The position numbers and the translations under genes are program-made. Below, piece after piece: positions 2,889 to 60,557 of a DNA stretch of 64,000 nt (its first letter is position 1; each line of letters opens with the position of its first letter). A model generated the notes under the pieces. The model was not told where the DNA came from, did not search any database, and saw only the letters and a list, made by a program, of their open reading frames with translations. The DNA is from Bacteroidota bacterium. Its GTDB lineage: Bacteria > Bacteroidota > Bacteroidia > 2-12-FULL-35-15. The DNA lies in assembly GCA_025963725.1 (NCBI GenBank), contig JAOQAE010000002.1, positions 1,606,411 through 1,670,410 on the forward strand, written 5' to 3'.

Positions 2889-3932
2889 ATGTTCAAAGCA
2901 GCGCTGAAGCTCTTCCTTAACATCCTTTTTTTCCTGCTCATGCTCTTTTGCCTGATCTGGCACGAGCTGGTTGTTTACGGCATTTCACAGGCAAAGGGAC
3001 AGCTCTACATTATCCGCAAAGCACAGCCTGCTGAAGAGATCCTCCGCGACCCTTCCTTTTCCGATTCCCTGAAGCAAAAACTGCTGCTGATCGCCGATAT
3101 AAAAAGGTTTACGGTCGACAGCCTCGGCATGCGTCCAAGCGACAATTACACCACGGTTTTCAACCAGCATAAAAAACCGATCTTATGGACAGTTTCCGCA
3201 GCGGAGCCTTATGCCATGAAAGCCAGGGAATGGACGTTTCCCTTCCTGGGAGCAGTTTCATACAAAGGTTTTTTCAGCAAAACAATGCTGCGCAGGGAAG
3301 TTCTTGATCTTGTGAAAGACAACTATGATATTGATGTGTACAGCCCTTCCGGCTGGTCGACCCTCGGCTGGTTCAAGGACCCGATCCTTTCCAACATGCT
3401 GTACAAAAATGAAGGCGAGCTTTCCAACCTCATCATTCATGAGCTTACGCACGGTACCCTGTACGTAAAAAATGATGTAACCTTCAATGAGAACCTTGCC
3501 AGCTTTATCGGCGATAAGGGCGCGGAGCTTTTCCTGGCGCAGCGTTTCGGTAAAGAGTCGAAGCAGTTCATTGATTATGAGAACAGCAAGGCGGATGATA
3601 AAATTTATAACGATTACATCCTGAAAAGCACGAAGCGGCTGGACAGTCTGTATCACCTGCTGGGAAGGGGCATTTCGGAAGATGCAATGAAAATAAAAAA
3701 GAGGGAGCTGATCACGGAGATCGTGCTGGGTGTTTACGGGCAGCAGCTGCACAAGCCAAAACTTTATTTCAAATACACCAAGCAGGCCTTCCGGGAAGGA
3801 AATGCTTTTTTTATGTCGTTCAGCAGATATGATTCGGAATATGATAAATTTGAAAAGGAATACAGAACCATCTATCATTCCAGCCTGAAAGAATATTTAG
3901 AGGCGATGAAGGAGAAGTATCCGTCACTATAG
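2889..3932 (+). CDS. Predicted membrane-anchored zinc aminopeptidase (COG4324-like)
   Basis: A 347-residue protein with one N-terminal membrane helix (residues 8-30) and a periplasmic catalytic domain. The zinc motif HELTH is at 184-188 and the downstream acidic ligand is probably E201 in FNENLASF, the gluzincin pattern of the 'predicted aminopeptidase' family (Pfam Aminopep). Family length is about 330-370 residues. The ATG at 2889 is chosen because the membrane helix starts at once after it. The gene stands alone between a palindromic repeat and a repeat-rich spacer. The substrate is unknown; the protease assignment is inferred from the metal-binding motif. Confidence 0.85.
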   Translation: MFKAALKLFLNILFFLLMLFCLIWHELVVYGISQAKGQLYIIRKAQPAEEILRDPSFSDSLKQKLLLIADIKRFTVDSLGMRPSDNYTTVFNQHKKPILWTVSAAEPYAMKAREWTFPFLGAVSYKGFFSKTMLRREVLDLVKDNYDIDVYSPSGWSTLGWFKDPILSNMLYKNEGELSNLIIHELTHGTLYVKNDVTFNENLASFIGDKGAELFLAQRFGKESKQFIDYENSKADDKIYNDYILKSTKRLDSLYHLLGRGISEDAMKIKKRELITEIVLGVYGQQLHKPKLYFKYTKQAFREGNAFFMSFSRYDSEYDKFEKEYRTIYHSSLKEYLEAMKEKYPSL

Positions 3933-3974: not shown

Positions 3975-4003
3975 TGTCATCCCGAGCCTGCCCGAGGGAT
4001 CTT
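3975..4003. repeat. Single arm of the 'GTCAT(C/T)C(T/C)GA...GATCTC' repeat
   Basis: TGTCATCCCGAGCCTGCCC followed by GAGGGATCTT. This matches one arm of the palindromic family seen complete at 8263-8333 and 19577-19672. Just downstream (4031-4075) are AT-rich 'cagattcgcagatttttt' repeats. Confidence 0.65.
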
Positions 4004-6847: not shown

Positions 6848-9800
6848 ATGAACACATTTGTTACAGAGCCTTACAAGGCAAAAAATAAGATCCGGATCGT
6901 TACGGCGGCATCCCTGTTCGACGGGCATGATGCAGCCATCAATATTATGCGCCGTATCATCCAGAGCAGCGGTGCGGAAGTGATCCACCTCGGCCACGAC
7001 AGAAGCGTGCAGGAGATCGTGGATTGCGCCATCCAGGAGGATGCAAATGCGATAGCGCTTACCTCCTACCAGGGCGGCCACAATGAGTTCTTTAAATACA
7101 TGCACGACCTGCTGAAGGAAAGAGGCTGCGGACATATCAAAATATTCGGCGGCGGCGGCGGAACCATCCTTCCTTCGGAGATCGAAGATCTGCACAAGTA
7201 TGGCATCACGCGCATTTATGCGCCTGACGACGGCCGCGCCATGGGCCTGCAGGGAATGATCAACGACATGCTGCAGAAATGCGACTTCCCCACAGGTGAG
7301 AACCTGAACGGCGAAGTAAAGCACCTGCTGACGAAAGATGCCAAATCAATTGCACGGCTGATCTCCTCAGCAGAAAACTTCCCGGAGCAGTTCTCGAAAT
7401 TCACCGGCGAGATCGAAAAGGCAGCAAAAGCCAAAATAACGCCGGTGCTCGGGATCACCGGCACCGGAGGCGCAGGAAAATCGAGCCTTGTGGATGAGCT
7501 CGTACGCCGCTTCCTCATCGATTTCAAAGACAAAACCATCGCGATCATTTCCGTTGACCCTTCCAAACGTAAAACCGGCGGGGCATTGCTTGGCGACCGC
7601 ATCCGCATGAACGCGATCAAGAACCCACGCGTGTACATGCGCTCGCTGGCCACACGCCAGAGCAACCTCGCACTTTCCAAATATGTGAAAGAAGCTGTAG
7701 ACATCGTGAAGGCCGCCAACTACGACCTTGTGATCCTGGAAACCTCCGGGATCGGGCAAAGCGATACGGAGATCACCGAGCACAGCGACATGAGCCTGTA
7801 TGTAATGACGCCTGAATACGGCGCAGCAACACAGCTGGAGAAGATCGACATGCTCGACTTTGCAGACATCATTGCACTGAACAAATTCGACAAACGCGGC
7901 GCACTGGATGCGATCCGCGATGTAAAGAAACAATACAAGCGCAACCACCAGCTCTGGGATACGGACGATGATGCGATCCCCGTTTACGGAACCATCGCAT
8001 CGCAGTTCAACGATCCGGGGATGAACAAGCTGTACAAGGCCATTGTGAACAAGCTGGCTGAAAAGACCGGCGCCGACCTGAAATCGGATTTCGCGGTGAC
8101 GGATGAGATGAGCGAGAAGATCTACATCATTCCGCCGCACAGGACGCGTTATTTGGCGGAGATCGCTGAGAACAACCGCGGGTACGACAAATGGGTGAAC
8201 GAACAGAAAGAGATCGCTCAAAAATTATATGCGATCGCAAAAACGATGGAATCAATATCGGGTGTCATTCTGAACGAAGTGAAGAATCTCGATACAATTG
8301 TAGAAGAGATCCTTCGCTCGGCTCAGGATGACAAAAAAGAGCTTCTAAAATTATTGCATGCAGAATATAACAGGGTGAAACTGATCTTCGATGGCCGCAA
8401 CAAAAAGATCCTCGAAGGCTGGGCGGATAAAGTGCAACAATACAAAAATGAATTCTTCATTTTCAAGGTACGCGACAAGGAATTAAAGATCAAGACACAT
8501 TACGAATCGCTTTCACATTCGCAGATCCCGAAGATCAGCACACCGCGCTACGAAGCATGGGGCGACATCCTGAAATGGAATTTGCAGGAAAATGTTCCGG
8601 GTGAATTTCCATACACCGCCGGCGTATTCCCGTTCAAGCGTGAAGGCGAAGACCCTACACGGATGTTCGCCGGGGAAGGCGGGCCGGAGCGCACCAACAG
8701 GCGCTTCCATTACGTGAGCCTGGGAATGCCTGCGCACCGCCTGAGCACGGCGTTCGACAGCGTTACCTTGTACGGACAGGACCCGGCGATCCGCCCGGAT
8801 ATTTACGGGAAGATCGGCAATTCAGGTGTTTCGATCTGCTGCCTCGATGATGCAAAAAAACTCTACAGCGGATTTAATTTAGCGGACCCGAAAACATCGG
8901 TGAGCATGACGATCAACGGCCCGGCAGCAATGCTCACAGGCTTCTTCATGAACGCCGCCATCGACCAGCAATGCGAGATCTATATCAAAAAGAACGGGCT
9001 GGAAAAAGAAGTTGAAGCGAAGATCGAAAAGATCTACAAGGACAAAGGCAGGATCCGCCCGAAATACCAGGGGAAGCTTCCGGAAGGAAACGACGGATTA
9101 GGATTGATGCTGCTTGGCGTTACCGGCGACCAGGTATTACCAAAGGATGTGTATGAAAAGATCAAGGCCGAGTCGATAGCCGCAGTGCGCGGAACCGTGC
9201 AGGCCGATATCCTCAAGGAAGACCAGGCGCAAAACACCTGCATCTTCTCCACGGAATTTGCATTGCGCCTCATGGGCGACATGCAGGATTATTTCATTCA
9301 GCAGAACATCCGCAACTTTTACTCCGTTTCCATTTCAGGCTACCATATCTCCGAAGCGGGCGCCAACCCTATCACACAGCTGGCGCTTACCTTATCGAAC
9401 GGATTCACTTATGTGGAATATTATGCAAGCCGCGGAATGGATATCAATAAATTCGCGCCGAACTTATCCTTCTTCTTCAGCAATGGCATCGATCCGGAAT
9501 ACTCGGTGATCGGGCGTGTTGCACGCAGGATCTGGGCCAAGGCGATGAAGCTGAAATACAACGCCAATGAGCGCTCACAGATGCTGAAGTATCACATCCA
9601 GACCTCCGGCCGCTCACTGCATGCGCAGGAGATCGACTTTAACGACATCCGCACCACGCTGCAGGCATTGTACGCCATCTACGACAACTGCAACTCCCTG
9701 CATACAAATGCTTACGATGAAGCGATCACCACTCCTACCGAAGAATCGGTAAGGCGCGCCATGGCGATCCAGCTGATCATTAACCGTGAGCTTGGGCTGG

Positions 9801-10288
9801 CGAAAAATGAGAATCCGCTGCAGGGATCATTCATCATCGAAGAACTGACCGACCTTGTGGAAGAAGCGGTACTGACTGAATTCGAGCGCATCTCCGAAAG
9901 GGGCGGCGTGCTGGGTGCAATGGAAACGATGTACCAGCGCGGCAAGATCCAGGAAGAAAGCCTTTACTACGAAACACTGAAGCATACAGGGGAATACCCG
10001 ATCATCGGCGTAAATACGTTCCTTTCATCCAAAGGCTCGCCTACCATTGTTCCGAAAGAAGTGATCCGCGCAACGGAAGAAGAAAAGCAATACCAGATCA
10101 CCATGCTGGAGGAATTGCAGAAAGCAAATGCGGACAAAGCGCCGGAGCTGCTGCGAAACCTGCAGACCCTGGCCGTGCAGAACAAGAATATTTTTGAAGG
10201 GCTGATGGAGGTTTGTAAATACTGCTCACTCGGACAGATCACGAATGCCTTGTTCGAGGTTGGTGGGCAGTACAGAAGGAATATGTAA
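6848..10288 (+). CDS. icmF: Fused isobutyryl-CoA mutase (IcmF): B12 domain, G-protein chaperone, mutase barrel
   Basis: A 1146-residue cytosolic enzyme that interconverts isobutyryl-CoA and butyryl-CoA with adenosylcobalamin. Domains: B12-binding (about 1-145; DGH at 25-27, H27 the likely cobalt ligand), MeaB-like GTPase (about 195-420; P-loop GTGGAGKS), helical linker, then the mutase barrel (about 560-1146). In propionyl-type methylmalonyl-CoA mutases the substrate carboxylate is held by a Tyr and an Arg; here the matching places look like Phe (GVFPFKR, 592-598) and Gln795 (EDQAQNT), as in isobutyryl-CoA mutases. Residues 472-495 are encoded by an inserted palindromic repeat. The gene has its own promoter. 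The family call is strong; substrate is inferred from the two residues. Confidence 0.95.
8263..8333. repeat. Palindromic repeat element embedded in the icmF reading frame
   Basis: Left arm 8263-8290 starts TGTCATTCTGAACGAAG; right arm 8306-8333 ends GCTCAGGATGACA. The arms match as inverted repeats at 22 of 28 positions, and most mismatches are transitions that still pair as G-U in RNA. The 15-base centre separates them. It is read in frame as residues 472-495 ([10 protein letters not shown] ... EILRSAQDD) in the linker between the GTPase and mutase domains. The same family occurs between genes at 19577-19672. Confidence 0.88.
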
Positions 10289-19576: not shown

Positions 19577-19672
19577 GAGATTCTTCGCTTCATTTCATTC
19601 CGCTCAGAATGACAAACAGGGCAGAAATTACAGTTTTAATACGCTTGTCATGCTGAGGCACGAAGCATCTCA
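19577..19672. repeat. Complete palindromic element of the 'GTCATTCTGA...GATTCTTC' family
   Basis: An arm AGATTCTTCGCTTC ... CGCTCAGAATGACA at 19577-19614 and an opposing arm GTCATGCTGAGGCACGAAG ... CATCTC at 19647-19672. This is the same repeat family as the copy in icmF, but with the arms in the opposite order. Confidence 0.75.
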
Positions 19673-19795
19673 TCATTAAGAACCTTAAGATCTATTTTCA
19701 TGACAGAGACTGCTTCCGATAAATATACCCCTTTTCAACAAACATTTCATTACCCCGCAATTTTCAATTTCCAATCTTTCAATCTTATCTCCACC

Positions 19796-29853: not shown

Positions 29854-29886
29854 AGCCCTGTCAGGGTTTGAAACCCTGACAGGGCT
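29854..29886. repeat. Perfect 33-base palindromic repeat
   Basis: AGCCCTGTCAGGGTTT, one central G, then its exact reverse complement. It lies between two minus-strand genes. I recall similar 'agccctgtcagggtttgaaa' palindromes between genes of other Bacteroidota. No T tract follows, so termination is not certain. Confidence 0.85.
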
Positions 29887-60534: not shown

Positions 60535-60557
60535 CTCTTCGACAAGCTCAGAGTGAC
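60535..60557. repeat. Repeat fragment 'CTTCGACAAGCTCAGAGTGAC'
   Basis: CTCTTCGACAAGCTCAG then AGTGAC, an arm-like fragment of the 'GTCA...GAAG' intergenic repeat family, just after the acyl-CoA dehydrogenase stop. 'CTTCGACAAGCTCAG' is a wording I recall as common in bacterial spacer repeats. Confidence 0.6.

Follow-up and report, generated by a model that had tools for sequence, protein, structure and literature searches.

The window analyzed here is a stretch of 64,000 nucleotides from a Bacteroidota genome, which carries at positions 6848-10288 (+ strand) the gene icmF for a fused isobutyryl-CoA mutase of 1146 aa, identified from the Pfam matches of its product (B12-binding, MeaB, and MM_CoA_mutase) and from a solved relative (4xc6). 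According to the parts of PMC10481361 that were covered, the G-protein domain of the Cupriavidus IcmF is joined to the mutase domain by a linker. The linker of the window gene contains a palindrome of 69 bases, composed of two 26-base arms and a 17-base spacer. The left arm (GTCATTCTGAACGAAGTGAAGAATCT, built as GTC-ATTCT-GA-AC-GAA-GT-GA-AGAAT-CT; 8264-8289, + strand) extends from codon V473 to the first two bases of L481, the spacer (8290-8306, + strand) contains the palindrome TACAATTGTA, and the right arm (8307-8332, + strand) is an inverted copy, which reads GTC-ATCCT-GA-GC-CGA-GC-GA-AGGAT-CT on the - strand and ends with residue D495. Between the two arms, 20 of the 26 base positions are complementary. 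An initial annotation of this DNA had described an intergenic palindrome family translated in the icmF frame at 8263-8333, with 28-base arms and residues 472-495. The palindrome is real and the family is indeed translated in the linker, but the arms have 26 bases and the element corresponds to 23 codons, residues 473-495, stop-free in frame.

Each single arm can also fold back on itself, with five base pairs in the stem, then a GA/GA mismatch and two further pairs, and three bases in the loop. The 77-nt stretch with the palindrome folds with -35.2 kcal/mol (z = -6.6; 0 of 200 shuffles equally good), compared to z of only -1.1 and +2.0 for the two adjoining stretches, and the left and right arms folded separately behave the same as shuffles (z = 0.06 and -0.27). 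The commonest IcmF linker has 56 residues and no insert (41 of 114 alignment rows, one gene's repeats counted too). The short helix that the insert was proposed to add is predicted at residues 481-490, flanked by longer helices, but in an AlphaFold model of low confidence (mean pLDDT 63, input of 39 IcmF rows out of more than 100). We take it that the insert is tolerated by IcmF; no evidence for a function in the enzyme turned up, and the word "domesticated" in the initial annotation, which implies use, is not retained here.

Using a generic arm motif, in which only GTC, GA, CT, and the five-base pairing are fixed, six exact arms are found in the window compared to 0.1 per 64 kb in triplet shuffles (n = 20), although one of the six (3166-3190) resembles a chance match. 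A single exact arm of the same superfamily lies at 3976-4002 (+ strand), downstream of an ORF ending at 3932, as had been noted for position 3975; the possible arm reported near 60535 is not an exact one. The region 19577-19672, previously regarded as a complete copy, is a different dimer, in which an arm with a longer loop (19578-19613, - strand) and a second arm (19647-19670, + strand) form a pair at 19578-19670 in the opposite arrangement, with GTC ends inside, before an ORF starting at 19700; its fold is weak (z = -1.7).

The arms belong to a repeat family dispersed in the own genome and in those of relatives. The pattern GTCATNCTGAGN{2,12}GAAGNATCT gives 75 matches in 15 of 36 genus genomes and none for the reversed-pattern control, two of the 75 being the right arms of IcmF in the window and in G001. 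A looser ATNCT pattern is found 26 times in the own genome and 39 times in G001 (its control gives nothing in any of 9 genomes), and a related ATTNC pattern 38 and 124 times, respectively (its control gives a single match, in G563, among 8 genomes). The arm stems co-vary (ATTCT/AGAAT, ATGCT/AGCAT, ATCCT/AGGAT). The left arm of the window recurs at 26 of 26 bases in G001 (C50:18665-18690), where it lies in a frame 24 codons past a stop, before the point at which an M17 aminopeptidase probably starts. Within the own genome the left-arm pattern identifies only one place with two mismatches beyond the arms of the element, and a DNA search with the whole element returns itself and one weak place, 78% alike; the abundant own-genome arms are of other subtypes than those of the IcmF element.

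The context of exact arms was surveyed in 20 stretches each from the own genome and from G001, where 13 of 54 arms sit in ORFs of at least 110 codons. A second survey of 45 own-genome stretches gave 62 rows, with second-family places mostly counted once per strand, of which four are in ORFs of at least 120 codons, none with a Pfam family. Of the genes around the own-genome arms surveyed, IcmF is the sole Pfam-supported one with an internal arm, the Pfam check covering ORFs other than those of 111-142 codons at L258, L275, L276, L297, L004, L167, and L174; the ORFs of the own-genome loci L258, L275, and L276 have 111-128 codons. The arm-containing ORFs of L263, L266, and L213 match no Pfam family, and at L273, L294, L296, and L211 the element is located 0-24 codons past a stop, before a likely start. 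Paired arms occur at seven places in the G001 stretches (one partner allowed one mismatch), some mixing two arm types, with spacers of 13-16 bases at five places and of 6 and 39 at the others. No arm in the 20 own-genome stretches has a convincing partner, so the head-to-head pair is not established as common in the own genome.

Exact arms are strongly concentrated in IcmF linkers. In 171 distinct IcmF genes (184 minus 13 duplicates; L197, L205, L206, L334, L341, and L346, with unmatched linker pattern, left out), nine arms in seven genes are found in 37,005 linker bases compared to none in 502,476 other bases, while the reversed motif gives 0 and codon-shuffled linkers a mean of 0.03 (maximum 1 in 300 rounds). 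Seven of 171 is not a frequency, because later loci were chosen by linker similarity or length, but the contrast between linker and rest within the same genes still stands despite this selection. Among 110 IcmF genes collected by whole-protein similarity, counted after removal of three repeats of the window, five arms in four genes are found in 21,051 linker bases vs none in 357,186; with one mismatch allowed, the linkers contain 7 vs 13 in 17 times more remaining sequence. A chance palindrome was rejected on the linker-vs-rest counts, the fold z, and the window shuffles. Within the genus this dimer is present in 2 of 32 IcmF linkers (window and G001; G019, L123, not included), and the other 30 lack it, in support of the initial annotation.

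Outside the genus, in other families of the class, arms in the same frame as in the window are located at the same linker place in L062, L095, L180, L303, and L324. In the first four, where both arm places are recognizable, they form a 28-codon unit, which starts at codon 17 from the A of AQKLY in L062, L095, and L303, as the element of the window does, and at codon 14 in L180. Both arms are exact in L303 (GTCATTGCGAGTGAAACGAAGCAATCT and inverted GTCATCCTGAACTTGTTTCAGGATCT), and L062, L095, and L180 have one exact and one worn arm: L062 an exact left arm, whose stem is again a different one, and a worn right arm, L095 an exact right and a worn left arm, and L180 ATCATTCCGAACGAAGTGAAGGAATCT (one mismatch) and inverted GTCATTCTGAACTTGTTTCAGAATCT. 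L324 has the right arm only. Between their differing arms, L062, L095, and L303 have the same middle residues, LDKxGLNxDE or a near form of it. L095 reads DEILRQAQND at the same IcmF place, and L194 (family f4) has EEILRSAKDE where the right arm would be, with DNA agreeing by eye with the window arm in 23 of 26 bases and no arm within one mismatch remaining in the linker. Such residues in distant IcmF had been proposed as the mark of ancestral protein sequence. They partly occur, in L194 and L095, but as their DNA resembles decayed or intact repeat arms, we attribute these peptides to an old insertion rather than to ordinary ancestral protein sequence. The repeat seems to be old in the linker and to have moved along with it, and the element is probably not a new insertion in the lineage of the window.

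The segment of approximately residues 461-510 (8228-8377, + strand) is unlike its counterpart in the nearest relative, and we interpret it as laterally exchanged, based on the identity profile, the tree, and the AU test. In a core-codon tree of 34 rows, of which 30 are genes of the genus and four lie outside it (residues 446-540 excluded), the window gene is the sister of L007 (100/99) and the G001 gene L013 the sister of L028 (100/100), which has an ordinary linker. Forcing the dimer carriers together is 478 log units worse and rejected (AU p = 7.3e-6), under a model that ignores the unequal base make-up of the rows, window and L007 included. The window gene and L007 are ~90% identical outside residues 461-510; per full 30-codon step the identity is 0.84-0.98 and falls below this range only at 451-480 (0.65) and 481-510 (0.30). 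Compared to G001, identity is 0.90 at codons 471-480, 0.87 at 481-490, and 0.57 at 501-520, and the two dimers agree in place, start codon, frame, right arm, and, by eye, 15 of 17 spacer bases. The insertion in this lineage assumed in the initial annotation is not supported by these data: L007 differs from the window across 461-510 while the non-sister L013 shares the dimer with its place, spacer, and right arm, which suggests linker exchange. Such an exchange would have been not recent or not direct, since the linkers of the two carriers are only 0.57 identical at 501-520, below most of the gene. The simplest account of these sequences would be that the linker was swapped as a cassette, not recently. 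A recent insertion in the own lineage of the window is less likely given the identity profile, the tree, and the AU test. We identified no donor genome for the linker, and neither an empty site with sufficiently similar flanks nor a target duplication was readable.

Five bases distinguish the right arm of G001 from that of the window, and four of them form two compensating pairs, a result reached in 0.05% of random-placement trials. Selection or conversion could explain these changes instead of mere inheritance; overall, the observations are compatible with structure-keeping inheritance as well as with the substitution of other repeats. The left arm of G001 (L013) is interrupted, with 24 bases replacing GAA. 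This interruption (CCTTCTTCAGGCTCAGGGCTGGCT; L148) looks like a fragment of another arm.

Other palindromes have reached the same or comparable sites. A second family (CCTGNCAGGGTT-AACCCTGNCAGGG) is present in 11 of 36 genus genomes (control 0), with 43 forward matches in G034, and one copy (CCTGTCAGGGTTTGAAACCCTGACAGGG; family CCTGTCAGGGTTTNNAACCCTGACAGGG) lies in the window at 29857-29884 (+ strand). A perfect copy at C10:127089-127116 is inside the IcmF gene of G034 (C10:125124-128522), the linker of which reads PLSGFGTLTG. In L332 (family f83), an arm with one mismatch is found in a differently built IcmF linker. The arms also occur in frame in an unrelated protein, the SpoIIE phosphatase of G024, between NNPLWIV and ADKQPIG, and a G019 homologue has a different arm subtype in the same loop. 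Exact arms are present in 3 of 31 distinct SpoIIE loops (43 loci minus ten without a recognized loop and two duplicates), two of the three belonging to near-identical G024 paralogues, that is, in 2,055 loop bases compared to none in 52,623 other bases. Many SpoIIE homologues align to the query only on both flanks of the insert. REP-like arms were seen at SpoIIE loci including L431, L432, and L434, and the loops of other genes contain other in-frame repeat-like stretches, which we take to be known intergenic repeats.

The own genome (97.9% complete) has one Y1_Tnp match, L178 (G000:C6:384022-384366). No exact arm is found in its 3345-base locus, which contains five palindromes of the GCTCCTACGGAGC type, another repeat family absent from the window by the same pattern. 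Mobilization by an own RAYT was rejected, as the sole Y1 transposase is flanked by this other repeat.

In our opinion these observations are best explained, with good but not full confidence, by a REP-like pair acquired in frame by the IcmF linker of an ancestor or donor within the class, the linker then moving laterally. A head-to-head pair of TGTC-ended REP-like arms would have inserted, presumably by transposition, in the linker between chaperone and mutase, and would have been retained, probably as a neutral change, because 69 bases preserve the frame, both arms are stop-free, and the linker tolerates changes in length. Homologous recombination across the conserved flanks may then have passed the linker between lineages, to the window gene and the G001 gene, and the arms would later have kept their pairing, been replaced by other repeat subtypes, or decayed to ordinary linker. 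Recent separate insertions, each lineage acquiring its palindrome by transposition from its own genome into a tolerant site, would explain why the linker accepts different families (the second family in G034, the one-mismatch arm in f83) and why the SpoIIE loop has different inserts in different genes. We consider them unlikely, as the element of G001 agrees with that of the window in start codon, frame, and 15 of 17 spacer bases, the abundant own-genome arms belong to other subtypes, and the middle residues of L062, L095, and L303 are alike though their arms differ. A broader picture, which we put forward as possible though short of probable, is that part of the enzyme sequence evolves together with repeat DNA: IcmF linkers may be an in-frame reservoir where arms are swapped between subtypes with pairing and frame kept, with cassettes recombining between families, and IcmF together with the unrelated SpoIIE suggests that many repeat families share few tolerant sites.

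It is quite improbable that the element is an mRNA hairpin selected for slowing translation at the chaperone/mutase boundary. The fold of -35.2 kcal/mol (z = -6.6), the two pairs of compensating changes that separate the G001 arm from the window arm, and the pairing kept intact by different arm subtypes in L303 and (one mismatch) L180 would be consistent with it. However, linker z averages -0.42 over the 105 of 110 genes that lack an exact arm, with five of them below -2 (L025, L024, second family; L033, L026, similar peptide; L081, dissimilar), and the five carriers tested vary, L062 and L095 being ordinary (z = -0.75 and -1.0) and L006, L013, and L180 below -2.3. A hairpin is thus not a general need of IcmF, linkers without exact arms being not unusually structured. 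An ordinary linker with DNA palindromic by accident has hardly any probability left. Linkers that lack exact arms do contain peptides like DEEILQNAKND (L048), but this reading is at odds with the nine exact arms vs none in the rest of the same genes (0.03 in shuffles) and with the 26 of 26 bases of the window left arm copied elsewhere in G001; it is disfavored for the window and L303, and may apply to linkers without an exact arm.

The closest known elements are the CGTC/TGTC-tagged REPs, described in the covered parts of PMC3733652 (BMC Genomics 2013) as having a CGTC end often changed to TGTC, a stem starting with AT of 8-9 bp with a loop of 4 or 5, and inverted dimers; they occur in five phyla including Bacteroidetes, are sometimes intragenic, and have no dedicated transposase. 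The window arms are also TGTC-ended (T before GTC at 8263-8266, TGTC on the - strand past the right arm), their stems likewise start with AT (ATTCT/AGAAT, ATCCT/AGGAT), and the genome holds many mostly intergenic copies (26 ATNCT and 38 ATTNC own-genome arms). They differ in the stem, with seven standard pairs, two mismatches, and a loop of 3, whereas the right arms of L180 and L303 have an 8-bp stem and the loop CTTGT. We therefore call the window element REP-like and do not assign it to any of the four published families, the comparison being with the stem and loop description in the covered parts of that paper and not with a consensus. As in a REPIN, two inverted REPs that form one hairpin unit (Bertels and Rainey 2011, PMC3116915; PMC6006769, in the parts covered), the window element has two inverted REP-like arms and a short spacer; it differs in that the one Y1 transposase found in the 97.9% complete own genome is not flanked by the same REP. 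For the target-site duplication expected of a MITE, no empty site was seen with flanks alike enough.

The likeness to the protein-coding palindromes of Rickettsia pointed out in the initial annotation is supported. According to the covered parts of PMC2229807 and PMC3733652, RPEs (Ogata and colleagues 2000, 2002, 2005) are in-frame palindromes in conserved proteins, in 19 Rickettsia reading frames, with neutral or slightly detrimental effect, RPE-4 and RPE-6 matching the CGTC class. Such palindromes became known first from Rickettsia and later from Wolbachia and from some other bacteria. The window element is similarly in frame in a conserved protein, missing in relatives, and of a family also found outside genes; it has 69 bases compared to the 105-146 given in the covered part of PMC2229807 and comes from another phylum. 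The kind is thus already known, from in-frame REPs, from different REPs at about the same site of recB in X. campestris and X. oryzae (PMC3733652), and from the Rickettsia palindromes (PMC2229807), as far as the covered parts of these papers go. Those of PMC3733652 have no mention of IcmF, linker exchange, or several families per site. The literature searched, in which subscription journals were thinly covered and result lists short, gave no in-frame repeats in this phylum beyond the mention of Bacteroidetes in the covered parts of PMC3733652, and within the same coverage no IcmF case, travelling linker, or several families at one site.

Repeat DNA appears to have supplied part of the IcmF protein sequence, and as one linker can be traced across relatives in empty, occupied, changed, and decayed states, the fate of protein-coding repeat DNA becomes open to study. 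For annotation, peptides like NEVKNL or LRSAQDD within a conserved protein are not necessarily errors.

Two further observations concern linkers. Those of L095 (GTCATTCCGATGGAAGGAGGG) and L333 (GTCATTCCGACAGAAGGAGGT) have an extra in-frame stretch past the right arm, perhaps a third repeat, and the pattern-defined linker of L347 (G497) has 113 residues and contains SPSPTLPQRKGAGSG, perhaps another type of in-frame repeat.
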